A stretch of DNA of 64,000 bases from Mesostigma viride (Eukaryota > Streptophyta > Mesostigmatophyceae > Mesostigmatales > Mesostigmataceae): positions 1,926,192 through 1,990,191 of the forward strand of contig RPFO01000246.1 of assembly GCA_009746045.1 (NCBI GenBank), read 5' to 3'. Under the pieces are notes generated by a model. That model ran no database searches. It was given only the letters and a program-made list of their open reading frames with translations, and was not told the DNA's origin. The position numbers and the translations under genes were made by a program. Below are positions 35,906-61,331 of the stretch, piece after piece (positions within the stretch are counted from its first letter, which is position 1; every line of letters begins with the position of its first letter).

Positions 35906-38900
35906 TTAGACAGATAGACCGACTTGACAGTCAGCATTCATGAGCTTCCTCAGTACATTGTACTGGGCTGGGGCCTTGTGTGGCAGCTTTGTCAATGCAT
36001 CAGCAGGGTTCTCCTCGCCAGGGATATGCTTCAAGTCAACCAAACTGGCCAACTCCTTCAGCAACAAATAATCCAGGTCCCGGCTCCTGGCCAGCTGCTT
36101 GTGAACAAACTGGACCATACCCATGCTGTCTGTTAGCAACAACGTCTCCATCTGCAAGGTCCAAGGGGTAACTGAAGCCAGCTCCAGCATTAACTCCTTT
36201 ATGTACAGGCTGGACTGGATCCCCTCGCATATGGCCCTGCATTCTGCCACATCTGAACTGATACAGACCCTCTTCTGCAGTCTGCTGTACCAGCTGAACA
36301 AACTTGCCCTGCTCTGATAAAAAGCAAACAGAGCAGCAGATCTCCCCCTGACCTTGGTAACCTGGCGAGCATCCATGGAACTGTCAACAAAGATCTCCAA
36401 GGTGATAGGCTGGGCAAAGTCAATCCCAGACAAAATCAGATCAGGGGTACTCTCCACCAACCGGGCTATGACTCGAGGCTTCTCATCCTCAAGCACCTCA
36501 TCAGGCATTCTGCTATGGACCATCAAAGACGGACCACAGATGCTGGCAAACCAGGCCCACATGCCTCTCAACTCAGGTCCTGCAGCCTGGGTGATCTTCT
36601 CTGGCAAGGCCTTCACAATGGTCTGTTTATAATCTCCTCCAGCCTGAAGCCTGATACTCCACTCCCCGTCCCTCCTGAACAGGGTAGCCTGCATTCCACA
36701 GAACACTACAGGCTTGTTGGGCTCCTGCCACAGCTCCTTGCCCAGTGAAAACTTGCCACTGATGACAGGAATAAACTTCTTCAGCCAGGTCGTGGGGGCT
36801 AGCAAATGCAGATCATCTCCATGCAAACTAGCATACACTGGCAGACCCTCCCATTGGGCCAGCAGCAAACAGGGATCAACTGAAGACACTCTCAAGCCAC
36901 ACTCACTGATCAGAGCTTCCTGCAGCGTGAGTCTCCAGATGATTGGGCTCGACCTGAGTCCTTCCAGGCCCTTCAGAATAACCAGGAATTGTTGATGCAG
37001 CTCCAGCTTCCAGATGGCAGGCACCTCAACACAGTAAGGCTCATCCTGCTTCCACACCCTCCTGGCCACTTCTGGATCAGATTTTAAAAATGCCCTCTTG
37101 AAGTCCAGCAGCACTGATGACATAGCTGCTCCCCTGTTCAGCAACCCCACGTAGAGACATAGCAAAATTCTCCATGTGTCGTGTAGCATCCCTGGCGTGT
37201 ATAGCTCCTCTCCTGGCAGACTCCCCGTGCCGTGATACTCATTCAGGACAGGCCTGACATGGGGCACTGATACCTCATCCACAACCTTCCTCTTCAGCAC
37301 AAATCTCAAAGCAAGCTTCCTTGATGCTGGGGGACGTCTGTCTGTTGGTGCAGCACACTCAAACTGCAACCACTCCTCCAATGCCTTGGAGAAGGCGAGC
37401 TTCCAAGCCTCAAACAAAGTAGGCGAGCTCATCTCTTGGACCAGCTGGTCATATGTCAAAGGAGAGTGTGCAGCAAGGCTCCTGTGAGTTATGCCAATAC
37501 TGCTGGGGTGCAACACAGCTGGAATCACCAAACTGGCCGCTGGGGGCACCTCCCCTTCATCCCATTTTACACCCTTGACCGGCTTGGCCCTGCACCTGAC
37601 TGGAAATGTTGTCCTGAAATTTTCTAGGGGAATCATCCCCCAGCCATCTCTTCTCAGAGCTGTAGCTCTGATAGAAATCCCAGGATTGCCCAGAAAATTC
37701 TGACCCAAAATCACAGGGCCATCATAGTCCTCTAGGACAAGGAAGGTCACATCCACACCCATGACAGGGGCAGTAACCTCTCCCAACACCCTTAGATGCG
37801 TCCTACCACTGAAATCAGACACCCAGGGGCAACTTGGTTCTCCGACCAGCAGTTCTCCTGTATGCTGAGGTCCCATGACAGAAACCTGTGCATTGGTATC
37901 TATCTCCATGGCAGCTACCTCAGGTTCATCCAACTGGACAAGCTTGGACACCTTAGGCTCCTTCTTGGCTCTTTGCAAAGCCTGTACAATATCTGATAGA
38001 CGCACACCCCTAGGCCTGGTGTCGGGCCGTTCCGGAGGTGCAGCCTGTCCGCCTGCTTGCCCAACCACCGTATGTGAAGGTACCCCAGGGGCCGGGCCAG
38101 GGTCACCCTGAGGGCTCGATACAGCTGTAGCACCCTGATCAGGAAGCTCCACGTCACCCCCGCCTTGTACACCAGCGGGCACCTGGAAGAGGTCTCCTTG
38201 ATTACCTCCCCGGGGACGGATCTTTGACCAGGACAGACGGTGCACTGCTTGGGAGCCATCAATGGCCACCCAGCACTTATGGCCAGCGGCTTCTACTCGG
38301 GTCACCACCCCATCATGCCAGCTGCCACGTTTCCCTGGAAAGCTTGGTTCCTTCCACACAACAACCTGTTGTCCAACGTTAGGTTCTAGGACACTCCAGC
38401 CCTTGTCTTTCTGCCTCAGCTTGAGGAACTTGGCCTCTAGCTTCTCCTTCCATGCCTGCTCAGCATCAGCTGGCAGCATCCTGGTATGCAGCATAAGAGG
38501 ATTGATGGCAATGTCACCAAAGAACATGGGAGTCCTCAGGTTCAGCCTGTCCTCCACAGAACGTAGCCATGCAGATGTCACAATGGCAGATGACGTCCTT
38601 GGAATCCTCTCCACCAGCAGCACAGTCTTGATCTCTTGGATGGCTCTCTCCACCACCCCTTGCTGGCCGTGGCTCTCCCTGGGTGTAATCAGCAACTCTG
38701 GAAACTCTGGCAGGTTCTCACAGCACTCAAACTGAATGTCACACTGCAACAACTCCAACCCAGGGTACCTGCTCCTTGTCAACTTCAGAGCAGCAATCAA
38801 TGTAGGCTTCTCCATGTCAGGCAGGATCTCTAGGGTCTTGTACTTGGTATATCTGTCCACTGCCACCAGCAGCTTCAAACCCCTGATTCTCTGAATATCT

Positions 38901-39496
38901 ACCTGCACATGGCCTGGCTGCAAAATAGGAGTCCTGGCATGAGACTGCTTGGGCTTTCTAGCAACTAGCCTGCACTTGCAAGCTTGAGCAACCTGTTGGC
39001 AGATGGAGTACAACTCACTTCCTCCCAGCCGTCTAGCAACTTGCAAAGACTGAGCTGCATGGCCAAACATGGTATGCAACCTTGAGGCAATGTCATACAA
39101 GAGAGAAAACCTTTTATTGTCATTATTAGCACTCAAGGTATGTACAGATCCCTTATGTACAGGAGGCACCAGGGTCGTGCCTGTCAGACTGTCTCCAGCC
39201 CTATCCTCATCCTGACCATCCTGTGCCAGTCCTGCACGGTCAGAATGCTTCTGAGATCCACCTGGGTCCACATCACCAGGTCCTACCTCAGGCTCAGCAC
39301 CGCCATGGCGGGCACGTTGGCGAGTAACCACTGCAGCTACAGCTGGCATACTCTCTGTGGTAACCAAGCTTGCCCCATCGTGTCCAATAGGCTCTTTCAC
39401 TAGAGCATGGGGCTGCCCCTCACTGCTGTCACTAGCAGCTTCATTACACACCCCTGGGGGCACCCTCCAGGGTTCAGGGATGTGTGCAGGCTCAAG
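35906..39496 (-). CDS. pol: Cop1 pol: integrase - retropepsin-like - RT - RNase H
   Basis: The frame is open from the codon after the gag TGA (39,497-39,499) to 35,906. Residues below are counted from a GTG at 39,463; about 1,185 aa follow it. Integrase comes first: His/Cys cluster at about 130-164, acidic triad D189, D242, E272, and a barrel-like C-terminal module (VGQQVVVW...GSWHDG) at about 362-416. Next is a retropepsin-like domain (about 515-600) with EIDTNAQVSVM and the flap-end signature PVILGQNFLG. RT follows with motif A LLDFKRAFL (D787) and YASLHGDDLHLL (H881-G-D-D884), then RNase H with D1027, E1074, D1112. RT/RH type and the ADALTKLPH ending are copia-like. The protease sits after integrase, and its triad has Asn where Gly is expected. 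The frame has no internal stop, so the polyprotein looks functional. Confidence 0.85.
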   Translation of the reverse strand, partial: LEPAHIPEPWRVPPGVCNEAASDSSEGQPHALVKEPIGHDGASLVTTESMPAVAAVVTRQRARHGGAEPEVGPGDVDPGGSQKHSDRAGLAQDGQDEDRAGDSLTGTTLVPPVHKGSVHTLSANNDNKRFSLLYDIASRLHTMFGHAAQSLQVARRLGGSELYSICQQVAQACKCRLVARKPKQSHARTPILQPGHVQVDIQRIRGLKLLVAVDRYTKYKTLEILPDMEKPTLIAALKLTRSRYPGLELLQCDIQFECCENLPEFPELLITPRESHGQQGVVERAIQEIKTVLLVERIPRTSSAIVTSAWLRSVEDRLNLRTPMFFGDIAINPLMLHTRMLPADAEQAWKEKLEAKFLKLRQKDKGWSVLEPNVGQQVVVWKEPSFPGKRGSWHDGVVTRVEAAGHKCWVAIDGSQAVHRLSWSKIRPRGGNQGDLFQVPAGVQGGGDVELPDQGATAVSSPQGDPGPAPGVPSHTVVGQAGGQAAPPERPDTRPRGVRLSDIVQALQRAKKEPKVSKLVQLDEPEVAAMEIDTNAQVSVMGPQHTGELLVGEPSCPWVSDFSGRTHLRVLGEVTAPVMGVDVTFLVLEDYDGPVILGQNFLGNPGISIRATALRRDGWGMIPLENFRTTFPVRCRAKPVKGVKWDEGEVPPAASLVIPAVLHPSSIGITHRSLAAHSPLTYDQLVQEMSSPTLFEAWKLAFSKALEEWLQFECAAPTDRRPPASRKLALRFVLKRKVVDEVSVPHVRPVLNEYHGTGSLPGEELYTPGMLHDTWRILLCLYVGLLNRGAAMSSVLLDFKRAFLKSDPEVARRVWKQDEPYCVEVPAIWKLELHQQFLVILKGLEGLRSSPIIWRLTLQEALISECGLRVSSVDPCLLLAQWEGLPVYASLHGDDLHLLAPTTWLKKFIPVISGKFSLGKELWQEPNKPVVFCGMQATLFRRDGEWSIRLQAGGDYKQTIVKALPEKITQAAGPELRGMWAWFASICGPSLMVHSRMPDEVLEDEKPRVIARLVESTPDLILSGIDFAQPITLEIFVDSSMDARQVTKVRGRSAALFAFYQSRASLFSWYSRLQKRVCISSDVAECRAICEGIQSSLYIKELMLELASVTPWTLQMETLLLTDSMGMVQFVHKQLARSRDLDYLLLKELASLVDLKHIPGEENPADALTKLPHKAPAQYNVLRKLMNADCQVGLSV

Positions 39497-40684
39497 TCAA
39501 TGATCAGCAGCCTTGCCCTTGCCCTTGTCCTGGGATGGACCAGCCTTGTCCTTGCTGCCACCCTGAGCTGGCTTGCTCTGACCTTCCTGCCTCAGGTACG
39601 AGGGACACTCATTCCTGAAGTGACCCTTCCCCTGGCAGAAATAACATTCCACCTGACTGATGTCCCGTGAGGTCCCACTGCTGGGCCCAGCCTTGGGAGG
39701 ACCACCCACCCTCTTGAAGTCAAACTGGGACTGTGGATGTCCCGACTTCGGCGGGGTCCCCCGTCCAGCCCTTCTGTCACGCCCCCTCCTGGACCTTCCT
39801 CGACCCCTTGAAGAGGTCTCAGGCCCTCTCGAGGGCGCTGGGCCCCCGTGGCCCGATCCCCTCATGGACTTAACCGTGGGTTCAGTGGCCTCCTCATCAC
39901 CCTGACGAGGGCGCTTACCACCCACGTACTTGCCGCTGAAACACTCATACAACTGGTCCGTCATGGCTGCCCAGCCATGGACCTGTCGCATGTGGATGGT
40001 CACATTATCCATGGTGACCGGATCCAGCTGCAGCGACTTGAGAAAGTCGCCCATGGCCATCCGATCTGCGACGAAGAAGCCCTTGGCCATGGCGTCCTCC
40101 CTCAGCTTGACGAAGTCTTCAAAGGCGTGGACCACTAGTTGCCCCTTGATGGGCTTGTAGTCCAGGTATTCTTGCTTCAGGTGGGACCCATCTATGGTCC
40201 TCTTGTCACTCAGGAACGACCTGAGTCGCGTCATAAACGCCGTCCAGGTGTCCCCCGCCGCGTGTCGCTCCCGAACAAACTTGAACAGCCGCCTCGCCGA
40301 CTGCCGTATGTAGGCACTAGACGCCAGGATGCGAAGCTTGTCACCGTTGTATATCTCCGTGTACAAGTTCATGTCCTCTAACATCCTCTCAGCATCCCGG
40401 GGCTGCCAATTGTCCTTGATGGACTGAAACTGGCCTAGCACCGCGTACCCCTCAGCAACGGTTGGTCGCTTAGGCGCCGCTTGATCTGCGGCTGGCGCGT
40501 GCTGCCCGCCCTGCGATCCTTGGCTCTGATTATCTGGCACCTCAGCCTGGTCTCCCAGCGCCTGGCCGTCCCCGCGTCCATCGCGTCCACCGCGTCCATC
40601 GCGTCCATCTCGTCCATCCATCCCAGCGCCGCGCCGCGCGAAGCCCATAAAGCCCGCTTGTTGGTTGATAGCTCCATCCTCCAT
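39497..40684 (-). CDS. gag: Cop1 gag with CCHC zinc knuckle
   Basis: 395 aa starting at ATG 40,684. The N-terminus has a run of MDGRDGRDGRGGRDGR repeats, followed by a helical gag core (WQPRDAERMLEDMNLYTEIY, WTAFMTRLRSFLSDK), a basic linker rich in RGRGRS, and a retroviral-type knuckle CYFCQGKGHFRNEC near the C-terminus. It ends in a Lys/Gly tail and TGA followed by C. The frame of pol continues directly from this stop, suggesting that Gag-Pol is made by readthrough of UGA-C, not by frameshifting. The capsid and nucleocapsid roles come from the family. Confidence 0.82.
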   Translation of the reverse strand: MEDGAINQQAGFMGFARRGAGMDGRDGRDGRGGRDGRGDGQALGDQAEVPDNQSQGSQGGQHAPAADQAAPKRPTVAEGYAVLGQFQSIKDNWQPRDAERMLEDMNLYTEIYNGDKLRILASSAYIRQSARRLFKFVRERHAAGDTWTAFMTRLRSFLSDKRTIDGSHLKQEYLDYKPIKGQLVVHAFEDFVKLREDAMAKGFFVADRMAMGDFLKSLQLDPVTMDNVTIHMRQVHGWAAMTDQLYECFSGKYVGGKRPRQGDEEATEPTVKSMRGSGHGGPAPSRGPETSSRGRGRSRRGRDRRAGRGTPPKSGHPQSQFDFKRVGGPPKAGPSSGTSRDISQVECYFCQGKGHFRNECPSYLRQEGQSKPAQGGSKDKAGPSQDKGKGKAADH

Positions 40685-40866
40685 GATGGCCTCTGTTCAG
40701 ATCTGCTACAGCCAGCCAAGTGGCCAAGCAGCAATTAAAGCAATATAAGCTACTGAACAAGAAAGGAAAGTGCCAAGTGTTACCACTCAGGCAAGACCAC
40801 CACGGCTGGCCCCAGGCGCGTCCTGGTTCTCCTTGTCGCTGTCGTCGTCGCTGTCGCTCACCACAA

Positions 40867-41703
40867 TCAGCTCTGGTACCCTGCTACCTGCTGCGCCGTC
40901 GTCGACCCGCTGTCGGCCCGCGATGACTGAATCGTCACCGTTGGTAAAGTAGACAGGTGACAACCCGTCGTTGGCCCTCGCGGATTGTACGTTGGCACCT
41001 CGTGGTCGCCAAGTGTCTCGTCGCCTAGCCCAGCGACACCCCCTGCTCCTACCTCAAGGTCACTATCGTACCCAAGAGGTGCAAACTCCTCCCAACGCGT
41101 CACACGAACGCGAAGGGGCGGGGGCAGCTCCTGAAAAGGAACTCTTACTCGCTCGGAAACCTGCCGACTCTTGTCGCGCGCTGTCCTCCGGCGATGGCTT
41201 CCGCTGTCGCCCCGACCTCTGCAAGCCGCCTGTGTGCTCCGCTCCGCGTCGTTCACGCCTAACTGGCCCCGCTGCAACACCCTCGTCGCCGATGCCGCCT
41301 GCGAAAGCACGTGGTACTCCCGCGCCCGCTACTGTCGGTACAAACTCGTGTCGCCCTGCGCCAGCTGCTCCGCAACCTCGCCTCGCCTTGCTGCCAACTC
41401 CGTCCGCACTCGCTCTGCTACTGCAGTAATCACCGTCTGGATGCCGACCAACCCGTGAAGCTCCTGCTCAAGGTCGTCGATGCTCCGGTGCTCCGGAATG
41501 ACGATGGTTTGTACGTGTCGCAGAATTCGCTCCCAATCTTCGACCTGGTCGTCGACGAATTGCACGAAGCTGCGATTTACAGGCGGACGATCTGCAAGCA
41601 ATAAAGATAGATCCCGAACGACACGACGTAATTCAGGAGAAATCGAACCCCCAGCAGACTGCCGAAACCGGAAATCCTGCTGCCGTTGTTCCTCCTGCAC
41701 CAT
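40867..41703 (-). CDS. Cop1 leader reading frame (ORF0), with one in-frame TAG
   Basis: An ATG at 41,703 opens 124 codons to TAG (41,329-41,331). The same frame then continues open to 40,867. The first part is charged and helical (RRVVRDLSLLLADRPPVN, VAERVRTELAARRGEVAEQL). The second holds a basic patch and an acidic stretch (EEFAPLGYDSDLEVG). The TAG is followed by CGG. No family is recognised. It could be an accessory or gag-N-terminal protein, or simply an open leader. The next frame, gag, begins 183 bp downstream in another phase. Confidence 0.4.
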
Positions 41704-41796
41704 TCACCACCGGACGAGCTCCTCTCGTCGTCAACGCTGCACACCGCAACCGGCAACGACCCTCCTGGCCGTTCCGCTGAGACTGGTTGTAATTTG

Positions 41797-42492
41797 AGTT
41801 AACGTTCTTAGCACACGCAATGTGAAGGATATGGTTGCAATGCAGCAATGTGTGAATATGGTTGGAAACGGAGCTTTGTTAAAATCGGATAATGTTTACA
41901 GCGCTCACACACTTGAGGCTTGTACACGCGCTTGCCAAGTCAAGGCACAACACGTGAGGCGGGCTCGCAAGAGATGCCCATTTGGCACTGGCCTATTGTT
42001 TATATACTTGTGCACTGTGCTTGCTAGTCCTGAGCAGCCTAGGAGGCCTGCTCAGTAATAACACCCCCGGTACAGTATTCACTACCTGTACAGCGCCCAC
42101 TCCTATACAGTAGGTCTGCCATACAGGCACAGTGACCACAGAGCACAGTCCACAGTGACTATTGCATCTGCACCTAGAAGTCCAGGACTAAGCCTGCGGT
42201 ACCAACAGACCACAGGTTAAGGTTCCTATTTCCTGCGTACGACGTATTAATCCAATACCGTCGTAGGTACAGCACCTAATTCCTGTCAGCCCAGGAATTA
42301 CTGTCGACCCCATATGTCGTCGGCAAATATTCACGTCCGACTTAGAAGTTCAGCCGGCTCGCGCTCGCGCGCGACCGGGAAGTCGGAACGCCATAACTTT
42401 CTTGATACTTGTCGGAATGAACTCGTTCCGGTGCCGCTGGAATCGCAGAGATATGCCGAATCAGGATCACGCCAATGCGCTTGGCGTTAACT
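41797..42492 (-). repeat. Cop1 5' LTR
   Basis: 696 bp with termini AGTTAACG/CGTTAACT. A promoter is expected here by family, but no TATA box is singled out. Confidence 0.9.
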
Positions 42493-42824
42493 ACAACCCC
42501 AGTTCACGGCGCTACACACCGCGGCGCAGGCTTCGGAAACGCATGCTGCACTTGTCTCTCGCCTTAACCAGGTGGAGGGCAAGTGTGGCGTGCTCCTGAA
42601 GAAGCTTGAGGCCATCACCGCCCACACCGAGGCCCTGGCCACACAGGTCCCCAAGATAGCGGAGCAGACGGCCACCATTGCATCCCAGCCACCCCGGCAG
42701 GATGCTGGCGACCTCCCGCCGCTCTCCTACGCGGACCTGCTGCGGTCAGCGACCGCCTCCACCACCGACGCCATCGCCACAAAGCTCCAGGAGCTGGAGG
42801 ACCACCGCCAGGCCCAGCAACGGG

Positions 42825-43411
42825 CACTACATTTCGCCACCGCGGAAACCCAATTTATGCGAGAATGTGGTTCCGTCAATACGGCGGGGGTTACAAATTC
42901 AATTTCGAAGTTCGGCACCGTCGGATACCAGTAAAGCAACACTTGTTATCTAGAATCGCGCCATTTGGCATCAATTGGCCAGTTCTGAAAATTCGATGAA
43001 ATCTCTAGTCCTTGGTCGAATATTTTCCTCCGATTCCGATGACGAAATTTGAGTACGAATTTCTTAGTAAAGTCCACCGATTTGTTCGGTTCAGTATATT
43101 CCCACGCCGCTTGCTGACCTGACGGAGGCCGAATTCGTACTGAACACTAGCGAAAGTGCGCTCGATACTAAAAATTGCTACTTCCGAGATGTCTGACGGA
43201 ATTCCTGCTAGGTCCATGCTTTGGTACTGGACGGATGCTGAAATTCACTGTGGCTCTGTCCGAACGAGGAAAATTGTCAGAAATCTACTCTCGATACGAA
43301 CGTAACGAAATTTCCTAGTATCTGACGCTCGGAGACCTGCCACCGTTTTCCCCTACTAGACCGAACCACATTCCCCGCTAAAAAAGGTGTCCTAGGCGGC
43401 GAAATGTACTG
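42825..43411. mobile_element. CACTA-ended MITE, copy 1 (587 bp)
   Basis: The termini are CACTACATTTCGCC at left and GGCGAAATGTACTG at right, with a second inverted block (GAATGTGGTTC) about 40 bp in. The element is nearly identical to 49,103-49,691. It splits the ORF1 codons between QAQQR and VTDRARRE. The CACTA motif at the tips fits the CACTA/EnSpm superfamily, but a clean 3-bp target duplication could not be seen. Confidence 0.65.
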
Positions 43412-43961
43412 GGTCACCGACCGCGCTCGCCGCGAGTGCCGAGTGGTGCTACGTCGCTTCCCCCAGAACCCAGGTGAGACGTCAACCTCTCTCGCTGACG
43501 AGCTCAAGAACCAGCTTCTTACCCTCATGGGCCTGGTAGGTGAGGTAGAACTGCGTGGGTGCCACCGCCTTCCCCACTCACGGGACAAGGCGGCTCCCCC
43601 ACCAGTCCTACTCACCTTCCCCTACCCTGAGGACAAGCAGCGGTTCCTTCCTCTCTCGTCGCAAGCGGTTGCACGACCTCACCTGGACGCTGGATGACGA
43701 CCTCACCCCCGCTCAGCAACAGCAGCGACGCGACCTGTGGCCGGAATACCTCCGCCATAAGCAGGACCCCCAGAAGCCCAAGGTGTACTGGAGGGGCGGG
43801 GACCTGATGATCAACCACAAGATGTGGACGCCCCCAGCGGGCTAGAATAGCAATAGCCCTAGCTTGTAACCATTGGCGTCACTGCCGCTAAGGCAGCCAT
43901 GCCTAGAATGTTGCCTAGCTGTGCCAACACACCTAGTCACGTGCCGCCAACGCACGGTACA

Positions 43962-44440
43962 CACTACAATACGCTTCCGCGGACACCTTTTTCAGCGGGG
44001 AAAGTGCCCCCGGGCCTCCGGGGCAAATTCAGAAAGCGATGCGGAACTTAGATACTAAAATTTCGTTTTTGGTTCGTACCGTACAGCCAATCATTTTGCG
44101 CCCGGATCAAATTGTGATCTGGGCACTGAACACGAAAATTTCAGCGGAACGTACGAAACACCAACGCAACTAGAGAAAATTGTCAGTGACGAAACTGTAG
44201 TACCGTGTACCCAAGCAAAATGTAGTAGGACTTCGCGAAAGTCACGTTCGGAATTTTTCCCCGCAAGATTCCCCCGCAAGATTCCCCCGCATGATTCCCC
44301 CTGCTAGGTTCAGGTCCAGTCGATGCTCGCCCAATGGCGCAAAAAAAAGAAACATGTGTTAAATCAACGGTGCGAATCCTCGTTACCGCTCGGGTAACAT
44401 TCTCACTCATTTCGCGTCTCCTAGGAACCGTATTGTAGTG
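43962..44440. mobile_element. CACTA-ended MITE, second family (479 bp)
   Basis: The termini are CACTACAATACG and CGTATTGTAGTG. It interrupts the 3' UTR of the ORF1-only element between CGCACGGTA and CAACCAGCCATAGCC, as shown by the uninterrupted copies near 50,620 and 45,120 (minus). Its interior is unrelated to the 587-bp family. Confidence 0.65.
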
Positions 44441-44752
44441 CACAACCAGCCATAGCCTTAGCCTAGTCCTAGTACAGCCATGCTACGCCCTGGCTATGTT
44501 CAGATTACTTGCCCACGCTCCTTGCTATGATATGCTCACATGGGTCTTATTGCACCCACAGTTTGCCGGATCGTTAGCCTGTCCTTTTAGCTAGCCGCGC
44601 CCGATTGCAGCTGTGGCATGCCTTTGGCATGAAGGAGACTGGGGGTCTCTGCCCTTTCTCCTGTAGTGCACACACAGGGAGCACTTCGGGGAAGCACTTC
44701 GGTGCTCCGTGACTCCCAACGGGAGCACGAGTTTAATTAGTTAATTAATTAA

Positions 44753-45029
44753 GGGACCGTGTGGATAGCATGGTAATGCGTTGACACTATAATTGGTACT
44801 ATTGGTCCTAAATTCTCATTTTGACCAAATTCGCGTTTTGAGGCCTGCCATGGGCCAGGGTCCATTCAGGCACTAATTGTAATTATTTGAACCCAGGTTT
44901 TTGTCCAAAATTCAAAAAGTGTGTTATCTGTCATGGGTAAAAATGCCAGGGTCAAAATTTGATGTTTGCACATATATTTTTTAATTCAAACTGGTCCTAC
45001 AATAATGACTTTTCTTGGGAACACTGACA
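44753..45029. other. intergenic, no feature seen
   Basis: A/T-rich DNA lies between the TTAA tail of copy 1 and the truncated tail of copy 2. No coding or repeat structure is recognised. Confidence 0.4.
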
Positions 45030-46940
45030 CTAGGAGCGTGGCAAGTAATCTGAGCATAGCCAGGACGTAGCCTGGCTGTACAAGGACTAGGCCGGCTAAG
45101 GCTATGCATGGCTGGTTGTGCGGTACCGTGCGTTAGCGGTGCACGTGACTAGGTATGTTGGCACAGCTAGCCAAACATTCCAAGCATGCATAGCGGCAGT
45201 GACTACCAATGGATACAGGCAAGGGCTAAATATTATGCAAGCTATTCTAGCCCGCAGCCTGCCGCGTCCACATCTTGTGCATGGTTGATCATCAGGTCCA
45301 TGCCCGGCCTCCAGTACACCTTGGGCTTCTGGGGGTCCTGCTGCGGAGGTATACCGGCCACAGGTCGCGTCGCTGCTGCTGCTGAGCGGGGGTCAGGTCG
45401 TCGTCCAGCGTCCAGGTGAGGTCGTGCAACCGCTTGCGACGAGAGAGGAACCGCTGCTTGTCCTCACGGGCTCCCAGCCCACAGCTGGGCTCCAGGGGAA
45501 GGTGAGCAGGACTGGTGGGGGAGCAGCCAGTTGTCCCGTGAGTGGGGAAGGAGGTGGCACCCACGCAGTTCTGACCTGAGTCACCTACCAGGCCCATATC
45601 GAGGTACGTAAGGAGCTGGTCCTTGAGCTCGTCGGCAAGGGAGGTTGACGTCTCACCTGGCTTCTGGGGGAAACGACGCAGCACTACTCGGCATATTCGC
45701 GGCGAGCGCGGTCGGTGGCCTCCCGCGCGTTGGTTGGCCTGCCGCGGTGGTCCTCCAGCTCCTGGAGCTTCGTGGCGATGGCGTCGGTGGTGGAGGCGGT
45801 CGCTGACCGCAGCAGGTCCGCGTATAGGAGAGCGGCGGGAGCCGGTCGCCAGCATCCTGCCGGGCCGGCTGCTGGGATGCGATGGTGGCCGTCTGCGCCG
45901 CTATCTTTGGGACCTGTGTGGCCAGGGCCTCGGTGTGGGCGGTGATGGCCTCAAGCTTATTCTTCATGAGCACGGCCGCGCATGCACTTGCCCTCCACCT
46001 GGTTATATTAAGGCGAGAGACAAGTGCAGCGTGCGTTTCCGATGCCTGCGCTGCGGTGTGTAGCGCCGTGAACTGAGGTTGGAGCTTGTGCATGGACGAC
46101 CTTGGTTTCCACATTGGAGACCCGGGCCTCCACCGTGTTGAGCGTGGTGTTCAGCGATGTCAGCTTCTCGGCCAGCGGCCAGGTCACGTGCTCGATCCTC
46201 CATCACTAGCTGCGCGGATGTTGTCCTTGCTGAGGGAGCTCTACCCTATAGGGAGCCGATGGGGCTGCGCTGGCTGCGCGGGGGATGGGGTGCTGAGCGC
46301 TCGGAAGATGTCGCCGCTCGGCTGCGCTGGTAGTCATATAGCTGGTCAAGATAAACAGGCGTTGGCGTGGTTCGGAATAAGTGTAGAGCCAGGACCTGCC
46401 GCGGTATTCGATAGCCGCCCCCCCCCTTCTGGGGCACGAAGAGCTTCCGTTCCTGTGCGAGGAACTGGAGGACCTCGACGCATTCCTGCGCCGACAACTC
46501 TTGCCACTCGATCGAGGAGTGAGGACAGTTTGTCGCCGGGCAAGAAGTGGCGCCATTTGTGATCGATCATGGCAGGTTTTCTTGGGCTCAGGCGAGGCGC
46601 TGGGCGATGGTTGGGCGGGTACAGTAAGCCAGGCGGCTGGACAATGGCGAGGGCGATCGATCGAGGGTTCAATGGGCTGGGCGCTGGGAAGCTGTGCATG
46701 CCAGCTCCTTTTCCAGCCCTCGTTTTGCTTTTGGAGTCGTCATAGCTGCTGTCACGTGCGTAACTTTGTCGATACTGTGCACGTGCATGTCAGCCGTACA
46801 GTAACCGATTATACTGGCAAGTGCGTCTTAAACTGAAGGCGCATCGAATGCAAGTGGTCTGACCGAATTTGGGGCTCAGACGCATGCAAAAGATCTGAAC
46901 TCCGCCGTCAGCCATACCGCCGTCAGCCATTTTGCTTTCT
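45030..46940 (-). pseudogene. ORF1-only LINE relative, copy 2 (minus, decayed)
   Basis: On the minus strand the copy starts with the family 5' end (ATGGCTGACGGCGG repeated, 46,935) and runs through a 5' UTR, ORF1 (from about 46,742) and part of the 3' UTR to 45,030. It lacks the hairpin and TTAA tail. ORF1 is broken by many small insertions, of which TGCA (46,090), GATC (46,190), CTAG (46,207) and ACGT (45,608) are 4-bp palindromes absent from the other copies. Confidence 0.75.
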
Positions 46941-46984
46941 CACATACATACATTATCAAGGAGACCACCCTAAAGCTTTTTTAA

Positions 46985-51236: not shown

Positions 51237-52489
51237 ATGTCTTCGGACGACAATCTTTCAGAGCCGAGGTCTGGCCCTGGTGAGCACGGACCGGCTCATG
51301 CAGTTTTCTGTCGACCCTGGCCCAGGCGAGCACAGGGATGACAATAAGGATATGTCCGACCAGCCCCGGGAGGAGGGCTGCGGGCAGGGAAGTACTAGTA
51401 GTGACAACCAGCGTGCGCGTGATAAGGTGCTTCGGCGGGAGACCTTGCTTCAGGAGGCGAAGCTGCTGTCGGCAATCAAGAAATGGGTTCCAGCCCCGCT
51501 GGTGCCTGGTGCTATTCAAGCAGACCGGGATCGCTTTGTAACCTCTCTTGGGCCGTTTTTCCGCAGGCTCGCGGGCAACCGAGACATCATTCCGGACTGG
51601 CTGGAGTTTCTTCGTGGAACTCCGCTGGGAGACCGCGAGAAAAACCACCCAGAGTGGATTTCGCTGCTGGATAGAGCACAGCGTCTGCGGTGGTCGCCAT
51701 TCGAGTTTCTGCGCCGAGCGAGGGACTGACTTTTCTTCGTTCTATCACTACCAAAACCTGCGACGAGATCGAGGAATTTGTAGACGCAAAGCCAAAGCCC
51801 GGGCAGACCATCATCGAGCACCTTAACTCTTACTACGACACGCTGGAGAAGCAGGGGCTCCGGTGGCCTGACGAGGCGGTGAATCTCCGATGGATCCAAA
51901 ACTGTGCTTTATCCGAATCCGAGAAGCGGAATATGGTCGCCAACTGCCGCGGTTACCTGAGCGACACTCACCGATGCAGAGCTCACCTCAAGGAGCTCCT
52001 GACGAACCAAACCCGTGTTTCTAGAGAAGGAGGTGCCGCGGAGGTGCCTCGTGTCGCCATGGTGATGGAGCAGCAACGGGAAATCTTCTGCTACAACTGC
52101 GGGCAGCCCGGGCACACACGCCGCGCATGTAAGGGTAAGGTTGTCGCTAATTCTGAGTCCTTCCCTCCCTGCGGCTTTCTGTAATAGGACTAGCCATCTG
52201 GCTAAGGATTGCTACTTTCGCAAGTGCAAGTCTTGTGGCAATTCTGGACATGATGCGTCTGCCTGCAGGAGCAAGGCGGGCGCTGGACCCAAGGATACCC
52301 AGATGGAGGTCCTCAAGCTGCTGCAGCAGATCTCCCAAGCCGTCAAGAGCGGTGCCCTTCGTAGTGGTGACGCTTCTCAGCCGCGTGGTGGTGACGCTTC
52401 CCAGCCGCGTGGTGGTGATGCTTCTCAGCCGCGGGGTGCATGGCAATAACTCTCATGGCCGCAAGAGGAAGCAGCAGCAGAAAAACTAG
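51237..52489 (+). pseudogene. Cop2 gag with three CCHC knuckles, frameshifted
   Basis: Coding signal runs through changing frames: an N-terminal helical core (to about 51,725), then IEEFVDAKPKPGQTIIEHL, knuckle CYNCGQPGHTRRAC (near 52,090), a second knuckle split by a one-base insertion near 52,183 (CGF...NRTSHLAKDC), and CKSCGNSGHDASAC (near 52,230). Three copies of GDASQPRG and a basic C-terminus follow. The frame that ends KRKQQQKN-TAG at 52,487-52,489 is the same as that of pol. Cop1 Gag has only one knuckle. Confidence 0.7.
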
Positions 52490-54188
52490 ATGATCCTCTC
52501 TGTTTATATAACCCCTACAGCGTCCTTATGGACTCATGTTGATGAGAGTGGACTCATGGCAGATGAGGCCTGCCAGGTGGTAGGGGCTCCAGCAGTAACC
52601 CCTACTGACCGTAAAGCTGCCCCGGTGAGCAGCAGTAAAAGTGCCCCTGTTTGTGGCATTCCTATCCATGCCTGGATTAAAAAGAGTACCCCAGAGGGAA
52701 CTCTTTCTGTAAATAATACATGTGGATCTGCTCCTGGTTGTAGACAGATACCACATGGTGTTGCCCAGGTGAGCAACGTATATGTGAACAATACATGTGG
52801 TGCAGCTCCTGGTTGTAGCCAAGCACCCATTGATATTGTTAACCCCTCAACCGTCTTTGACTCGTGACTAAAATGAGTCACGAGTTGCACAGTATGCCAC
52901 AGGTGCCCCCATTCAGCCTAATTATTTTTTCTAGACCATACTAGGAACCAAGCATAACCATATTAGGGCCCACCTGGGGGTATAGTGGGTGGTCCCAGTG
53001 CTAGCCCCCCCTGCTCTATAAATAGCCCCCCCCTCAGGGGGGTACGGTGAGTGTGCGCGGTGACACCCTTATAATGGATGATAGACCCCTTTCCTCAATG
53101 AGTTGACCCTGGGGTTGGTTTTGTAGATAGAGTTTTTAGTTAGGATGGGATAGAAACACTAAAAATTGTAACTCCCCCAGGGACCCATCAGCTGGTGCTA
53201 AAAATAACTGGTGACTATTTTGAGTCACGAGTTTTTTGGGGGCTAAAATAGGCATCCTAGTGCAGTTTTGAACATGGAAACGATAGGTAAGCATGGAGTA
53301 TGGGCAAACATGCATGCTAACACTTATTCCAACCTGTGTGCCACCAATACCTGCCATAACCACTGCAGGTCCCTGCCGGATATGATTGGAGACGACTACG
53401 CGCGGGCCGCGAGTACGGGGTTCACAACCTTATCATGCATGATGGAGCACGTATACCTTGGATTTCACCCTAGTATTTCAGGGGGGACTGCAACTGTACC
53501 CAAGCACTACATCCAAACACTTACATGTCTTGTTTCACCCAGGGACCCACAAGATAATGCTAAAAATAGCTGGTGACTATTTTGAGTCACCAGTTTTTGG
53601 GCGGCTAGAATAAACATCCTAGTGCAGTTTTGAACATGGAAATGATAGGTAAGCATGAAAAATGCATGATTATGTTTATTCCAGCCTATGTGGCACAAAT
53701 ATATGCCACAATAAGCGTAAATGCTTGCAGACCCGCTAATACTGTGGTACTTATTTTTACATGCATGATGGACCTTGACACAAAGTCAAAACATCCCAGC
53801 ACTCCTAGATAAATTAGTGACCAAGGGACCATGCATGCAGTAACACTGAAAATTGCCAACTAGAAATAGGTGGCACTGTGACCATCACGGAGCAGATTTT
53901 CAAACTGCACAAGTTATGCATAAACATGAAAGCTAATAAGACATGACCATGAAACAATAACCCATGCAGGCTAACAACATGAAACCAAATAACAGATGCA
54001 CAGGTGGGACCATGAAACAATAACCCAGGCTAACAACATGAAACCAAATAACACATGCACAGGTGGGTCCACCATGAAACAATAACACACACTTCAAACC
54101 ATGCCGGCCCATGGTGATACACGGCGCGCATGAGCGCGGGCAGGAAAGGCCAAATGCCATGCCACGTAGGCAACAAATGCTAGCATTC

Positions 54189-56507
54189 TTAGTCAGCCTC
54201 CGTAGGACTATATCCCAGGCGGACATGCTCCGCCCTGAGATGGCGGCGCCGCGCCACCCCCTTGAGCTTCCGGGTGGTGGCTGCTGCCCCCCTCGTGGTA
54301 GTGGCGCCCTTGAAATTCTTGGCGCATTCGCCACGCTGGGAGAGGCGCTGCCATACCCGCTGCTTCGTCACGTTGAAGTCCAGCCCCTCCACCTGCCCGG
54401 AGTGGAAGAGGCCGAAGCAGTTCCGCTCGCTGTTGCTGCAGAACGCCATGTCACAGTGCTCGCACATGACCGAGGTCTTGTGCTTCCTGCCTTGCGCGCA
54501 GCACAGTTGGCACAGCACCTGCTCCACCCACGGGATCTTCTTGGCGGGGTAGTGCAGGGGGCCAAATCGGCCCACCGTGCGGCTGAGGGGGATGTCCGTG
54601 GCCTGCAGCTCACGGATGGGCACGGTTGCGCCCGGCCACGCGTTCGCCTCGAGCTCCTTGGCCAGCACGCTCAGGAACCTCGAGTGGGTCATGGCGGTCT
54701 TGGACTCCGTGTGGATCATCACGTGCAGCAGGTAGCTGTTGGTGAGCACGTTGGCGAAGTGCCCCATCAGCAGGCGCACCCACCACACCCTCGTCACAAG
54801 GGCCTTGCACACGTCGTACTCGGCGCAGTATTGGTCGCACACGTCCGTGGCCTTGTAGGTGAGCCAATACTCCACGATGTTGTGGGGTGCGGTCACCGTC
54901 TTCCGCACCCCGGTGTGGCCGCCGTGCCGGGTGACCGCCACCTCCGCAAGGGCGCCCAGCCCCTTGGAGAGGGTCCACACCGGCTTCTTGTCCTGCCAGC
55001 TGCACAGCAGGTGCCCCTCGTTGCTTGCCGCCCACGCGTAGTCACCCTGCTCCACCTCCTTCTTCTTGGGCATGAGCTTCGCCACCTCATCGAAGGGCAG
55101 CCCCTTGCGGTTCGCGCAGATGGTGCCGACCACGCGGTGGCCCATCTCAGCGACTGAGTCGATGGCGCGCTTGCTCGTGTAGAACCGGTCCATCGCGACG
55201 ATGGCGGGGCGCTCGAGCACGGACACCATGCGCGTCACCACCTTGAACGTGTGGTCCTCCTCCTTGACCTTGTCGTAGGTCTCCACCTTGAGCAGGTAGC
55301 CCGTCTTGTCGTTCAGAGCGAACAGCTTGATGTGGAATTGCTCGGGCTTCGTGGGGTTGAAGCACTTCACGGGGGACATCTTGTGGCGCGTGGGGATGGA
55401 GCGCTCGTCCAGCGCGATGCGGTCCCCGGGCTTCACGTACTTGATGTACGCGGCGTTGAGGTGCTCCTCGAGCCACAGGGTCTGCCAGAGGATGTGCGCC
55501 CTCGGGTCAGTGTCGCGGGCAGGGCGCTGGGCAGTCGGCTGGCAGTGGAGGAAGCGTGCAATTTGCTCGAACCGCTTCTGCGGCATCACGTCTTGGAAGC
55601 AGACCGGCTTTCCCACACCCATCCCCTCGCTGGAAAAGTAGTCATCCCTCGAAGGGAACCTGCCCAGGGCCATGGTGATGACGATGCCCAGAAATTTGCC
55701 CATCTCATGCATTGTCATCGGGTGCCACTCACGCCCACCTGGCTTGCCCGCCCCCTTGAGCTCAGCATAGTCGTTGGTCTCCTTGACAATCTTGGCCACG
55801 ACATCACGCTGGGACCAGAAAAGGGAGAACAGCCCGAGGGGCCCAAACTTGAGCTGGGCAGGGGAAAGGTTTTGATAGCAGGCGGTACCCGTCATCGGCG
55901 ACAGCACCGGAGTATCGGGAAAAGGAAACACGCCTGGCTTGCCGAAACCAAATTTCCAGACGGTCTCGGCTGGCTCCTCAGTGGCAGGCATATCGTCAGG
56001 AAAAAACGAATCATCGAGCTCAGCCTCACCGCTCGGCACCGGACCCTCCGCATCCTTCTGGTAAACAAAGTCGTCATCGGAAGCGTCCGAGACAATGCTC
56101 TCGCTGGCCGCCGCCTTGGTCTGACGGCGCCTTTTCGGGGCGTGGCTGATGGCTGGGTTCTTCTTCGGGTTGCCGACAGCGCGCTTCCCCGGCTCGCGTC
56201 GCTTGACCGGTGTGGGCAGCTCGATATCCTCGGATTTGTCGTCGTCGTCCTCGCCGGCGTCAGAATCGCTATCCTGGCCCTGCTTGCTATCATCGTCACT
56301 GCTACCTGACGTTGGGACCTTCCTGGCTGCGCATTCTTTCACTAGAGCTTCGTACTCATCTGAGCTGCACGAATATATGAAAATCTGCTCACGGGTGAAT
56401 GGGTACGTGAGCTTGTCGTCCGGGAAATAGCAACGTGCACCATCTCCGGACCTGTTCACTGTCACTACCTTGCCCGGCAAACCGTACCTCGCTGTGTTTT
56501 TCCCCAT
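54189..56507 (-). CDS. piggyBac transposase (DDE_Tnp_1_7 family)
   Basis: 772 aa on the minus strand from ATG 56,507, uninterrupted. The first 190 residues are acidic and Ser-rich with basic clusters (PGKRAVGNPKK, APKRRRQTK) that could be nuclear signals. The DDE core (about 215-600) has the three aspartates in family motifs: ALDERSIPT (D367), AMDRFYTS (D440) and DVCDQYCAEY (D558). A Cys/His-rich C-terminal domain (about 666-702, CQLCC...CEHC...C...C...FH) is typical of piggyBac, where it binds the transposon ends. The reaction is cut-and-paste at TTAA through hairpin intermediates. A second upstream frame (ATG 56,613, MADEMQADIRTF) would join this one at TATGGGGAAAAA with a one-base shift, so the true N-terminus may be 35 residues longer or lost by an indel. 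The core looks intact. Confidence 0.9.
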   Translation of the reverse strand: MGKNTARYGLPGKVVTVNRSGDGARCYFPDDKLTYPFTREQIFIYSCSSDEYEALVKECAARKVPTSGSSDDDSKQGQDSDSDAGEDDDDKSEDIELPTPVKRREPGKRAVGNPKKNPAISHAPKRRRQTKAAASESIVSDASDDDFVYQKDAEGPVPSGEAELDDSFFPDDMPATEEPAETVWKFGFGKPGVFPFPDTPVLSPMTGTACYQNLSPAQLKFGPLGLFSLFWSQRDVVAKIVKETNDYAELKGAGKPGGREWHPMTMHEMGKFLGIVITMALGRFPSRDDYFSSEGMGVGKPVCFQDVMPQKRFEQIARFLHCQPTAQRPARDTDPRAHILWQTLWLEEHLNAAYIKYVKPGDRIALDERSIPTRHKMSPVKCFNPTKPEQFHIKLFALNDKTGYLLKVETYDKVKEEDHTFKVVTRMVSVLERPAIVAMDRFYTSKRAIDSVAEMGHRVVGTICANRKGLPFDEVAKLMPKKKEVEQGDYAWAASNEGHLLCSWQDKKPVWTLSKGLGALAEVAVTRHGGHTGVRKTVTAPHNIVEYWLTYKATDVCDQYCAEYDVCKALVTRVWWVRLLMGHFANVLTNSYLLHVMIHTESKTAMTHSRFLSVLAKELEANAWPGATVPIRELQATDIPLSRTVGRFGPLHYPAKKIPWVEQVLCQLCCAQGRKHKTSVMCEHCDMAFCSNSERNCFGLFHSGQVEGLDFNVTKQRVWQRLSQRGECAKNFKGATTTRGAAATTRKLKGVARRRHLRAEHVRLGYSPTEAD

Positions 56508-56924
56508 ACTGCTGTATCGCCCAGTCTAGTCCGAACTTTTCCACAGGCACTGCAATGAAAATGCCCTTCTTTACCTTGAAAGTCCGTATATCTGCCTGCA
56601 TTTCGTCCGCCATGTCTACGTCCGCGCTCCCCCCTTTTTTCGCATCCTTCGTTTTCGTACGTTTTTGTCAATTTTTTTTACCGCCAAAACCTGCCAAAAC
56701 CAGGGTACCCTGTTGACTTTGACCAGGGTTTCCACCCTGATACGGTGGTCAAATACGGTCAGACAAGTGTCCTACGGATAGAGTGAATCTAGATCTTTTC
56801 GGTGGTCTAGTTGGTTCCCGCCAAAACCTTCCCGCCAAATCCCTACAGGGCGCACAAACTCATGCCGAACGTGAGGCATGAGAAAAACTCGCAGTCGAAA
56901 ATCGGCACGAGGACGGTTGAGGGG
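56508..56924. other. piggyBac 5' arm and upstream frame
   Basis: The arm holds the short frame starting at 56,613 (minus), the presumed promoter of the transposase, and the right inverted repeat. GGGTACCCTG/ACCCTGG words around 56,700-56,740 form short inverted repeats. Confidence 0.5.
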
Positions 56925-59900
56925 TTAACAGTCAAGCTCCTCAGAGCAATAATCCTTGTTATATTGATAATAAAAACTTGGACTCTTGCTCTGCCAGGAA
57001 CGTGGATGCCCGTCCATGTCCTGAAGAGCCATCACCTAATGATTGTATTAATCTTAGGATTTTGGCTAAGAGTTTGCATGATGCCTGTGGCCATGGAAAC
57101 AATGCCATTAGGCTTGTTCAAGCCATTAATAACAAGGCTCTCTGGCAGGCTTATCAAGATGTCAGAGAACGTTGTGTGTGCCAATTGTGTGCTAACAAGC
57201 CTTCCAAACGTCATGCAAAGCATCCTGCAGATGGTAGGGGAAATCTACAAGCTGATATCCTCTACTTCACCAATTACAGGCAATTGCCTTACTTGGTGGC
57301 TGTGGATGAATGGTCAGGCCACATTGGAATTGAACCTATGGCAGCAGGGGATGAGAATACTCTCCATGCCGCAGTTCTTGTTATTCTGCAGAAGTTTGCA
57401 GTTATTCATAAGCTGCAGATGGACTTGCAGTTTAACTGCCTGACCAAATACTCTGATCTGCCTTTCCTAAGGATTGTGGGTCGTGAAGATCACCAAGCCC
57501 AAGGCAAGGTTGACAGATATATACAGGAGCTTAAGAAGTTGGTAATATCCGGGGATTATCCTGAGATGTTTAAACCAACTTTTGCTGTCAGGTGTTTGGG
57601 TGCTGCAAAAGTGGAAAACACCATGAACAACCGTCTTCATACTATCAAGGTGCGTGGTGTTCCACGGCTGGTCTCACCTCGTGGACTAGCAGGTGGCCTC
57701 TACCCTGATGACATCATGCAGGCATGGAGTAAGCAGAGGTGGGCACAGTATGCTCATCTCTGTGAAAAGGATAAACAGAGAGGAGAATCATTAAAATTTA
57801 AGGTGGGAGACCAGGTGATCTTCCACAAAAAAAATGCTCCTGGTAAACGTGGTTATTGGCAGGGTCCAGGGACCATAACCTCAGCAGTTGACCTGGAGAT
57901 GAAAACTGCTGATGTGGTCTGGAATGGGACCACTTATCATCTGGCTTGGAATAGATTGAAGAGAGATCCAATGAACGTTCAAGAAAATCCCCTGGTAAAT
58001 ATGGCCCCTGGAGAGGCACTTGGATCTCCCAATCTTTCCTGTCCACCTTTGGCCAGTGAACAGGCTGGACTCCAACTACCAGAAAGGGCGGCCTCCCATC
58101 AACTGGAGCCTACTACTCAGCAAGCTCAGCCTAAGACATTGACTGGGATATCACAGGATGATATGGATGAAGCTGACTTGTTGGATAATAGGGTGTCTGA
58201 TCAGCACCGGAAGCTCCGGCCGTTGGAACATGGGCTTGAGACCCCTGGGCAGGTGGATAACATATTTCAGTCTGAACAGCCAAAGCTTGGATTCAATTAC
58301 CCTGGTAATAAGCCATTGCCCTTGGAGACTGATGGGAAAATACCAGCCCAAGGAAGACAAGCTGAGGAGGGGTTGTCCAGGTTGAACACTCAGCTCGGCG
58401 AGAGAGGCAATCCTCAAGAGCTTCGGGATATTGTAAAGAAGCTCAAGCCCTCACTAAAGATTGCCAAAATAACTTCTCTTCTAGAGAAGGGCATGGACCT
58501 TGATGGCTTTGATGTGGATACCAAAGCAGAGGTCTCTGTCACCTCGCCCTTTAATGCTTTGCTGGATAAGTATTCCCTTGAACCCAATCCATGGACTATT
58601 GTCCAAGACTTTGCGGGTAACACTGATCATCAAGTTCTTGGGAATATCACTATCCCATTCTTGGGTGAGTCTTTGACACTTTGTGTTGTTGATGGCTATA
58701 AGGGGCCCACTCTCATTGGCCAGCCATTCTTGGTGACTCCCGGTGTTACCATTGTTGATGGCCCCAACAACACAAAGAGTCTCCTAAAAACCCATTGTGA
58801 CCCAATTCCTCTGGAATCATTCAGATGTCTCTTGCCTCTTGAAATGTTCCAGAAGGCACATTGGAAGACCGCCTGTGTCGGTTCAGTAAAAGGAGCAGAA
58901 TGGGGAAGGGATATACCCCCAGCTTCTGAGCTGGTAGAACCTGCCTGGCAGCTCAGTGTGACTTCTCTTGGTCTCACAAAAAGGTCATTTGCTGCTCATA
59001 GCCCTATGTCCTTTGATGATGTAGACCTGGATTGTCACACTTTCGCTGGCCTTGAGGCCTGGCGACTAGCATTGGTGCGTGCGCTCCAGGAGTGGCAAAC
59101 GCTGGATGTTTTTGAAGGCATTTCAGAACCTCCACCCAATGCTCAAATGCTTCAGTTGCGTTTTGTATGCAAGATGAAGAGCAAGCTTGGTGAGCTTCTC
59201 ATACCAAACGCACGTCCAGTTGTAACCCAGTTCCATGGTACTACAGACTTTGATAAGGAGGAGCTGTACACTCCTGGCCTGTCACATCCTGTTCTCAGGC
59301 TTATTCTTAGTTAGTCTGTACCTTGGTGCTTTGGACTATGGCTTGGATTATGGAGCAGAAATTGATGACTTCACCAGGGCCTTTTTGCATGGTGATCCTC
59401 AAGTGGCCAGAGCCACTTGGCAAGCTCAAAGACCCTGTTGTGTTAAGACCCCAGCATGCTGGATAGCTGAAGTAGGTCATCCCTACATGCAGCCTAAAGT
59501 GGGCTGGGAAGGACTGGTCAGCAGTCCAGTAATCTGGTATGAAACCATTGCTCCTGCCATCCAGGAGAGATGTCAGATGCAACAATCTCATCTTGCTTAT
59601 TGTCTCTTTGTGGGGCAATCCAAGGGACAACCCACCTGGGCTACCTTACATGGAGATGACATGCAACGCATTGGTCCCAAGGGATGGTTGAATGAGACCT
59701 ATAAAAGGCTCAATGACAAGTCCCCTATTGGTACCAGAGCATGGTTTACTAAAAACAGCCAGGTACCTTACTGTGGCATTGGCTGTACCCTTTTCCAAGA
59801 TGACAAAGGATGGCATCTTAAGCTGCAATCGGCGAAGGGGTATAAAGAAAAAGTAATAACTCAGTTGCCCAAGAGAGTAACTGAGGAGAATGCCCCTACG

Positions 59901-60287
59901 GTTAAAGGTCAGCTAGGTTGGCTGGCTGCCACAACTAACCCTGACCTGGCAGTACAGAGTAGGATGCCAGACTCTGTTGTTGTAGGAGAAGGAAGGAGGC
60001 GCCTGGAGAGCTGCCTCAATGAATCTCCTGACTTGGTGTTGTCCGGTGTAGACTGGCATGGGCGTATCATCATAGACGCCTACACAGATGCTAGCCAAGA
60101 GTCTAGATCTGCCAACAAGATTGGTGCCAGAGCTGGATGCCTGATCACCATCAGGAATGAAGGCAAACAGCCCTCGTTGGTATACTGGTCCAGTAACCTT
60201 CAGAGGAGGCGGTTTGCTGGCATTGACACCCCTGAGTGCAGGGCATACGCCATGTGCATTCGCGATGCCATATACATATTAAAAATA

Positions 60288-60698
60288 TAATTACTTACAG
60301 CAGAGTGAAATCACTCAAACCAAAGCAAACGCCCAGCTATAAACCTATATACAGAGCCATGTCAAAGCTCTATACTACGATAAGACCAATGGAAACGCCT
60401 AACGGGAGGAACCTAATAGCCCTGCTGCACCGCAAAATCAGCCCGCGTACGGCGGAGCATGATGTCAGCCATGGCCCGAGTCAGCGCCACCGACAAGCGC
60501 TGACGCCAATATGACGTCCAGGTCCGCGCCGACCATGGGGCCCGCTGGCCCTCCAGGTCCAGCCGGTCCTCCCGGAGCCGGCAACACTCCTTGAAGAAGG
60601 CGGAGGTCAGGGGCCCCATGGCCCCAAACTCCTCCAGGACAAAGGGCACCACACGATGGTGCCCGACGTCGCCGTAGGCCAGGAGCTTGGCCCGCCAT
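60288..60698 (-). mobile_element. 5'-truncated LINE in the Cop2 RNase H domain
   Basis: The insert is flanked by an 11-bp duplication GCCATATACAT (60,277-60,287 and about 60,699-60,709). The minus strand encodes a short C-terminal ORF (VPFVLEEFGAMGPLTSAFFK ... ADFAVQQGY, stop at 60,413) of the kind found at the end of LINE ORF2 proteins. A 3' UTR ending in an A/T-rich tail follows. It lacks the CTCC...GGAG hairpin, so it is a different LINE family from those at 9-16 kb. Confidence 0.7.
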
Positions 60699-61331
60699 AT
60701 ACATAAGAGAGCTACTCTTATGGTGTCTGAGTCAGATAAGACCTCAACCTGTGATTGATGTCAGGGTTTATTGTGATAATAAGCCCGTGGTCTCTTTTAT
60801 CAAGAATGAGAGGGCCACTACTACTGACTTGGACTACCTTGTGGCAAAGGAGTTGTCCAGCCACTGTATGACCATACATCTGCCAGGACAGTCAAATCCT
60901 GCTGATGCTATGACCAAGCTTCCACGACTGGCCCTTAATGGGTACCAGTTGCTGCGGTCCATGATGGCTGGGAAACCCTTGTCATGAGGAGTAATCTGGG
61001 AGCCTGAGCCTAATGCTCCTCCTGTAGGGTTTTATCCCCCTGGAGGTTTTGTCCTCTCTGGAGAAGAGGTTTTCCTTCATATTTGGGTTTTCCCTACAGC
61101 AGGTTACACCAACCATGCAATGATGAGATGCAAACTCCATAAGACCCAAGTGAGTCCCCATTGCCCTCACATGTGAAAGTGAACTGGCCAGGTGCGGCCG
61201 AACATCAATGAATACATCTAAGCCTTATCACTTTCACAAGGGAAAGAATGGCTGGAGTTGGTTGGAGACCCATCTATAGGGTCCACATGGGTCCTCAGAG
61301 ATAGAGGATCTTGTACAGATTACTACAATAC

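Follow-up and report, generated by a model that had tools for sequence, protein, structure and literature searches.

The order of domains in Pol is a main character by which long terminal repeat (LTR) retroelements are classified, and few departures from the standard orders are known to us. Ty3/gypsy elements and retroviruses are ordered protease, reverse transcriptase, RNase H, integrase (PR–RT–RH–IN), Gmr1 elements are ordered PR–IN–RT, and retroviruses recode between Gag and Pol; the protease active site, D-T/S-G, is to our knowledge near-universal. For the Pseudoviridae, the International Committee on Taxonomy of Viruses lists Pol as PR, INT, RT-RH (PMC8515867), and an excerpt of PMC3248453 places integrase between protease and RT in copia and usually last in gypsy. 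An excerpt of PMC2774666 describes Gmr1 as a gypsy lineage with a copia-like position of IN and CoDi-like diatom elements as copia elements, one clade of which carries a chromodomain on IN. Here, we describe two LTR retrotransposons, Cop1 and Cop2, from a 64,000-nt stretch of the Mesostigma viride genome (GenBank assembly GCA_009746045.1, contig RPFO01000246.1, positions 1,926,192 to 1,990,191; hereafter, the window, within which positions are numbered from 1). In both, IN and RT are separated by a PR-like domain, so that Pol reads IN–PR–RT–RH.

Compared with described systems, these elements and their relatives are most like Ty1/copia: they have an RT of the RVT_2 type (established through the relative P0004), RNase H in last position, IN ahead of RT, LTRs, a Gag with CCHC zinc knuckles (identified by Pfam in the Cop1 Gag and the Cop2 Gag remnant and by eye in a third group, Cop3), and, in the window copy of Cop1, a 5-bp target duplication. 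They differ from Ty1/copia in that PR follows IN instead of preceding it (none of seven sequences has the order PR–IN–RT–RH), in the triplet D-T-[NKD] where D-T/S-G is expected, in the HGDD motif of RT, in the LTR ends of Cop1, and possibly in its priming region, both described below. With Ty3/gypsy elements and retroviruses they share a PR directly before RT–RH and recoding between Gag and Pol (putative here), but IN lies upstream of PR and not after RNase H, and RT is copia-type by RVT_2. Gmr1, likewise an LTR element, also has a rearranged pol; the Cop elements differ from it in having a copia-type RT and in that PR, not IN, is the domain out of place relative to copia. CoDi-like diatom elements, set beside the Cop elements by description only, are also algal and copia-like. 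Among open-licence papers, we recognized no report of the order IN–PR–RT.

Integrase precedes the protease-like domain in seven sequences

Cop1 Pol is a single open frame of 1196 aa (35906–39496, minus strand; open reading frame list and alignment). Its integrase (38207–39094, minus strand; residues 135–430) was delimited by eye from conserved residues and comprises an HHCC-type zinc motif (H141, H146, C173, C175), a D-D-E core (D200-D253-E283), and an SH3-like tail. A low-complexity linker leads to the PR-like domain (37601–37954, minus strand; residues 515–632, limits set by hand), in which DTNA occurs at residue 533 and ILGQNF at residue 596. The copia-type RT follows (36617–37579, minus strand; assigned via the relatives P0001 and P0004), with HGDD at residue 892, and RNase H, recognized by its motif by eye, closes the frame (35909–36424, minus strand).

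The window copy of Cop2, on the plus strand, is damaged, and its Pol survives in pieces. The first part (56921–59311; open reading frame list and alignment to Cop1) contains IN, the PR-like domain, and the start of RT; the PR-like domain itself (58460–58816), placed by motif and by alignments, one of which uses the copy at locus L031, carries DTKA at ~58517. The second part, in another frame (59226–60287), contains RT with HGDD and the start of RNase H, the end of which lies beyond a break of ~400 bp (60694–60984). An undamaged Cop2 Pol, a frame of 1344 aa, was found elsewhere in the genome (L031, 63–4097), and the M. viride gene model P0002 matches Cop2 at 97% identity across 34% of the query. 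Cop1 aligns collinearly with Cop2, with 31 to 37% identity in aligned stretches.

The same IN–PR–RT order is present in seven sequences: Cop1, P0001, Cop1b, Cop2, Cop3a, Cop3b, and Cop3c. P0001 is an independent protein, 62% identical to Cop1. Cop1b is a decayed element with a Cop1 copy inserted within its PR-like domain (L009, 1404–3232; L030, 708–2909), and its pieces on either side of the insertion retain the order. Cop3 is a further high-copy family, reached through the genome matches of the gene model P0004; the upstream part of one copy was fetched for each of three subfamilies, yielding 917 to 939 aa of pol, and all three read IN, PR-like domain, and RT start. Between the main groups (Cop1/P0001, Cop2, and Cop3), identity is 28 to 35% in IN, 29 to 43% in PR, and 40 to 50% at the start of RT. 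Because IN and PR are only 28 to 43% identical, the order, judged on these sequences, is older than the split of the three groups. An earlier note on this DNA had proposed the order IN–PR-like–RT–RNase H for Cop1 and Cop2, and had taken it to be ancestral and not a local rearrangement; the order is indeed that of both elements and extends to all seven sequences (read as far as the RT start in Cop3a–c), and its recurrence in P0001, Cop1b, and three Cop3 subfamilies supports the ancestral interpretation. The sites that the note had pointed to, from residue 515 of Cop1 and within 58,500–58,760 for Cop2, contain the DTNA and ILGQNF motifs and the DTKA motif, respectively. The open-licence literature searched does not contradict the note's remark on knowing no named lineage so arranged.

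The class of the RT, which the note had called copia-type, is firmly assigned through P0004, whose match to RVT_2 is above the Pfam cut-off (E=1.6e-12). P0004 is 34 to 41% identical to the other members of our alignment A6, and its match places the group with copia-type RTs. RVT_2 is also matched below the cut-off by P0005 (E=2.3e-4) and by the trimmed RT piece of P0001 (E=0.0036); neither the Cop1 RT piece alone nor the intact Cop2 Pol matches this profile. The trimmed IN pieces of Cop1 and P0001 match rve, again below the cut-off (E=0.016 and 0.010). In full-length P0001, searched against Pfam up to E=10, the only matches are rve (residues 214–265), gag-asp_proteas (557–628), and RVT_2 (751–923), in the order IN–PR–RT. 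All three are below the cut-off, and nothing in Pfam is matched above it by full-length Cop1 or by the Pol of intact Cop2.

Identity and activity of the middle domain

Motif, profile, and PDB sequence comparisons point, weakly but consistently, to a retropepsin. We searched for the pattern D[ST]xA followed, after 45 to 85 residues, by hydrophobic-hydrophobic-Gly-x-x-hydrophobic. Cop1, P0001, and intact Cop2 Pol each contain it once; among 5,000 shuffles of each sequence, it turned up in 34, 21, and 25, respectively. A six-frame scan of the window and of the loci fetched by then found it only in Cop1 and Cop2 copies. A slightly wider pattern occurs in 63, 48, and 49 of 5,000 shuffles of the three Cop3 fragments. 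Cop3b and Cop3c each contain one stray D-S-x-A elsewhere in the sequence. The trimmed PR-like domain of P0001 matches only gag-asp_proteas (E=0.0021, profile positions 14–91 of 92) and Asp_protease_2 (E=0.12) in Pfam. The PR-like pieces of loci L032 and L034 match gag-asp_proteas alone (E=0.17 and 0.12), in the register seen in P0001, and the pieces of P0001, Cop3a, and Cop3c cover this profile nearly end to end in one register. When a profile of six PR-like sequences was compared with 177,635 sequences of the Protein Data Bank (PDB) up to E=10, four of the five matches, with E from 0.66 to 3.4, were retropepsins. Three of these are proteases of the HIV type or tethered dimers, which are not independent of one another, and the fourth is human DDI1, aligned from its DSGA to its GLDML in the active-site register (E=0.7).

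Several results weigh against this identification and against the completeness of the domain series. None of the Pfam matches to the PR-like domain reaches the cut-off (best E=0.0021); the window Cop2 PR piece, intact Cop2 Pol, and the Cop3b PR piece match no retropepsin profile in Pfam; gag-asp_proteas is found in only two of the five members of alignment A7; and the retropepsin match of Cop1 is partial, covering only the end of the profile. DUF6898 competes, with matches in two of the five members of A7 (best E=0.0047) and in the Cop1 piece (E=0.18). Profiles smaller than the six-sequence one found no retropepsin in the PDB, and two AlphaFold models were poor (predicted local distance difference test scores of 40 and 45). 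The glycine of D-T-G is absent from all seven sequences. At the C-terminal end, the Cop1 RNase H piece alone has no Pfam match, and its P0001 counterpart matches RVT_3 weakly and below the cut-off (E=0.052). The retropepsin identity put forward by the earlier note thus stands as regards a consistent family and register, and falls short in that every match is weak. We regard a retropepsin fold as likely and a protease as the probable nature of the domain.

The triplet reads DTN in Cop1, P0001, Cop1b, and Cop3a, DTK in Cop2, and DTD in Cop3b and Cop3c, a variation that the earlier note does not mention, and without its glycine, catalysis by D-T-x-A can only be called putative. The replacement of D-T-G-A by D-T-[N/K/D]-A in all seven sequences would fit a domain that kept the retropepsin fold and lost catalysis, the domain serving as a structural or dimerization element while a host protease cuts the polyprotein or the polyprotein works uncut. 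We consider this unlikely. All six aligned PR sequences share the D, the T, the A that follows the variable position, and the second-motif Gly, although the PR groups are only 29 to 43% identical, which fits active-site constraint; moreover, Asn and Asp often stand in for Gly and tolerate tight backbone turns. On balance, we hold an active protease to be somewhat more probable than an inactive one. The poor models, the competing match to DUF6898, and single matches that all lie below curated cut-offs would also suit some other all-beta module, in an element without a protease of its own, but this is improbable given that P0001, Cop3a, and Cop3c match one retropepsin family in one register, that retropepsins dominate the PDB matches of the six-row profile, and that both halves of the motif align with DDI1.

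It is more improbable still that a second, unrecognized protease lies upstream of IN, in Gag or in the 5' leader frames, making the middle domain an extra and the order an ordinary one. The Cop1 leader (~40700–41700) does hold further frames, the Pfam search covered gag and pol residues 1–135, and profile searches easily miss the protease, which evolves fast (excerpt of PMC3248453). Against this, D[ST]G is absent from P0001, from gag and pol of Cop1, from the pol of intact Cop2 and the first 797 aa of that of the window copy, and from the 917 to 939 aa of Cop3 pol that were read; gag of Cop1 and residues 1–135 of its pol have no protease match in Pfam; and by eye, what separates the Gag knuckles from the zinc motif of IN in Cop1 and Cop3 is only a short tail and ~100 to 130 low-complexity residues. 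The note had reported no D-T/S-G between the Cop1 gag knuckle and integrase, which agrees with our scan (the PR-like domain itself also lacks D[ST]G), and it had named an upstream protease as one result that would overturn its reading; none is recognizable between knuckles and IN in Cop1 or Cop3.

The explanation that we prefer, and hold to be reasonably probable as a whole, is that these are autonomous, recently mobile Ty1/copia-like elements of M. viride with the Pol order IN–PR–RT–RH and an active PR. Under this explanation, translation of the first frame would give Gag, and Gag-Pol would arise when a minority of ribosomes read through a UGA codon in Cop1 and Cop3 or, probably, change frame in Cop2; the retropepsin-like domain would dimerize in the particle; and the dimer would free IN, PR, and RT–RH by cleavage. 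More tentatively, and with somewhat more doubt than confidence, the elements could represent a deep, unnamed copia-like lineage that keeps PR beside RT as in gypsy, has IN between Gag and PR, and uses a working D-T-[N/D/K]-A protease in place of D-T/S-G.

Element structure and the Gag–Pol junction

Cop1 is an LTR retrotransposon of 8030 bp (34463–42492, minus strand), defined by LTR alignment and flanks with the ends trimmed by hand. Its 5' LTR (41797–42492, minus strand; 696 bp) and 3' LTR (34463–35157, minus strand; 695 bp) differ by a single 1-nt indel, and the 5-bp target duplication GTTGT flanks the element on both sides. The LTR termini, as trimmed, are AGTTAACG...CGTTAACT rather than the usual TG...CA; TTAACT closes the LTR in all six further Cop1 copies with a readable end. 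Ty1/copia elements have a primer site complementary to initiator tRNA-Met; by eye, no primer site of the 3'-tRNA type was seen in the sequence adjoining the Cop1 5' LTR (41757–41796, minus strand), and priming may be of another kind. Two more frames in one phase, separated by TAG, lie between the 5' LTR and Gag (40867–41702, minus strand), with lengths of ~125 aa (by eye) and 153 aa.

The Cop1 Gag frame (39497–40696, minus strand; 399 aa from stop to stop) has a CCHC zinc knuckle at residues 350–366 (Pfam zf-CCHC, E=1.5e-4). It ends in a UGA (39497–39499, minus strand) directly after which Pol continues in the same frame; the context, UGA CUU G, is kept in all eight copies inspected. Cop3a–c all have UGA CUA G after the zinc knuckles (by eye), with Gag and Pol again in one frame. 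Of the two contexts, UGA CUA is known to permit read-through, and the in-frame UGA-CU(U/A) between Gag and Pol suggests read-through in Cop1 and Cop3. In intact Cop2, the open frame in the 62 bases read before Pol differs from the Pol frame; if, as we infer, this is the end of Gag, Cop2 would require a change of frame.

The damaged Cop2 copy spans 50741–61334 (plus strand), with a 5' LTR from ~50741 and a 3' LTR remnant at 61253–61334. Its Gag remnants occupy two frames (51043–52184, plus strand) with a CCHC motif at the end (zf-CCHC, E=5.4e-6). Between Gag and Pol lies a 778-aa frame on the minus strand (54189–56525) for a piggyBac-type transposase (DDE_Tnp_1_7, PF13843, E=2.8e-50); at L031, the stretch leading into Pol is uninterrupted and lacks this frame. 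The catalytic Glu of the Cop2 integrase is replaced by Asp (GKVDRYIQELK, versus GVVERAIQEIK in Cop1). The intact Pol at L031 has the same replacement, despite the high copy number of the family.

Copies elsewhere in the genome

Copy scans covered the 440-Mb assembly. For Cop1, scoring was confined to the top-ranking among 10,177 candidates, making the count a biased lower bound: all 39 scored matches have 100% protein identity and an open frame. In the eight copies fetched, pol differs from the window copy at 0 or 1 of 3,588 bases, and the flanks after TTAACT differ among the six copies with a readable end; near-identical pol and a common end with different flanks indicate separate, recent insertions. 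The 1344-aa frame of Cop2 is open in 46 of 57 scored matches. The P0004 gene model (labeled Mesvir1) matches one place in the genome at 100% and begins just past the expected end of the PR-like domain; among scored P0004-like matches, a frame of 1320 aa is present in 15 of 80, with further groups at ~84% and ~77% identity. These counts support recent mobility of the Cop1, Cop2, and Cop3 elements, which, with their autonomy, forms part of the joint explanation favored above. A genome paper of M. viride ranks LTR elements first among repeat classes and reports that their activity is increasing (PMC6947507); the word copia is absent from its main text and likewise from the portion consulted of a second M. 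viride genome paper (PMC7027972).

Other features of the window

Between Cop1 and Cop2 (42491–50502), another repeat family is present in several diverged direct and inverted copies. A 63-bp tandem repeat at 62110–62424 lies inside frames that are open on both strands, and the frame at 2831–4033 (plus strand) presumably encodes a protein resembling plastid lipid-transfer (TGD2/MlaD-like) proteins.

Implications

Elements of this kind would tend to be missed by standard annotation, since full-length Cop1 and intact Cop2 Pol lack Pfam matches above the cut-off. Because M. viride belongs to an early branch of the streptophytes, a third stable Pol order in a copia-type lineage of this alga is relevant to the question of whether PR–RT–RH is the ancestral block and IN the mobile module. 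Of the new questions raised, that of the missing glycine interests us most: if it is active, D-T-[N/D/K]-A would amount to a natural experiment on an active-site motif regarded as nearly fixed.

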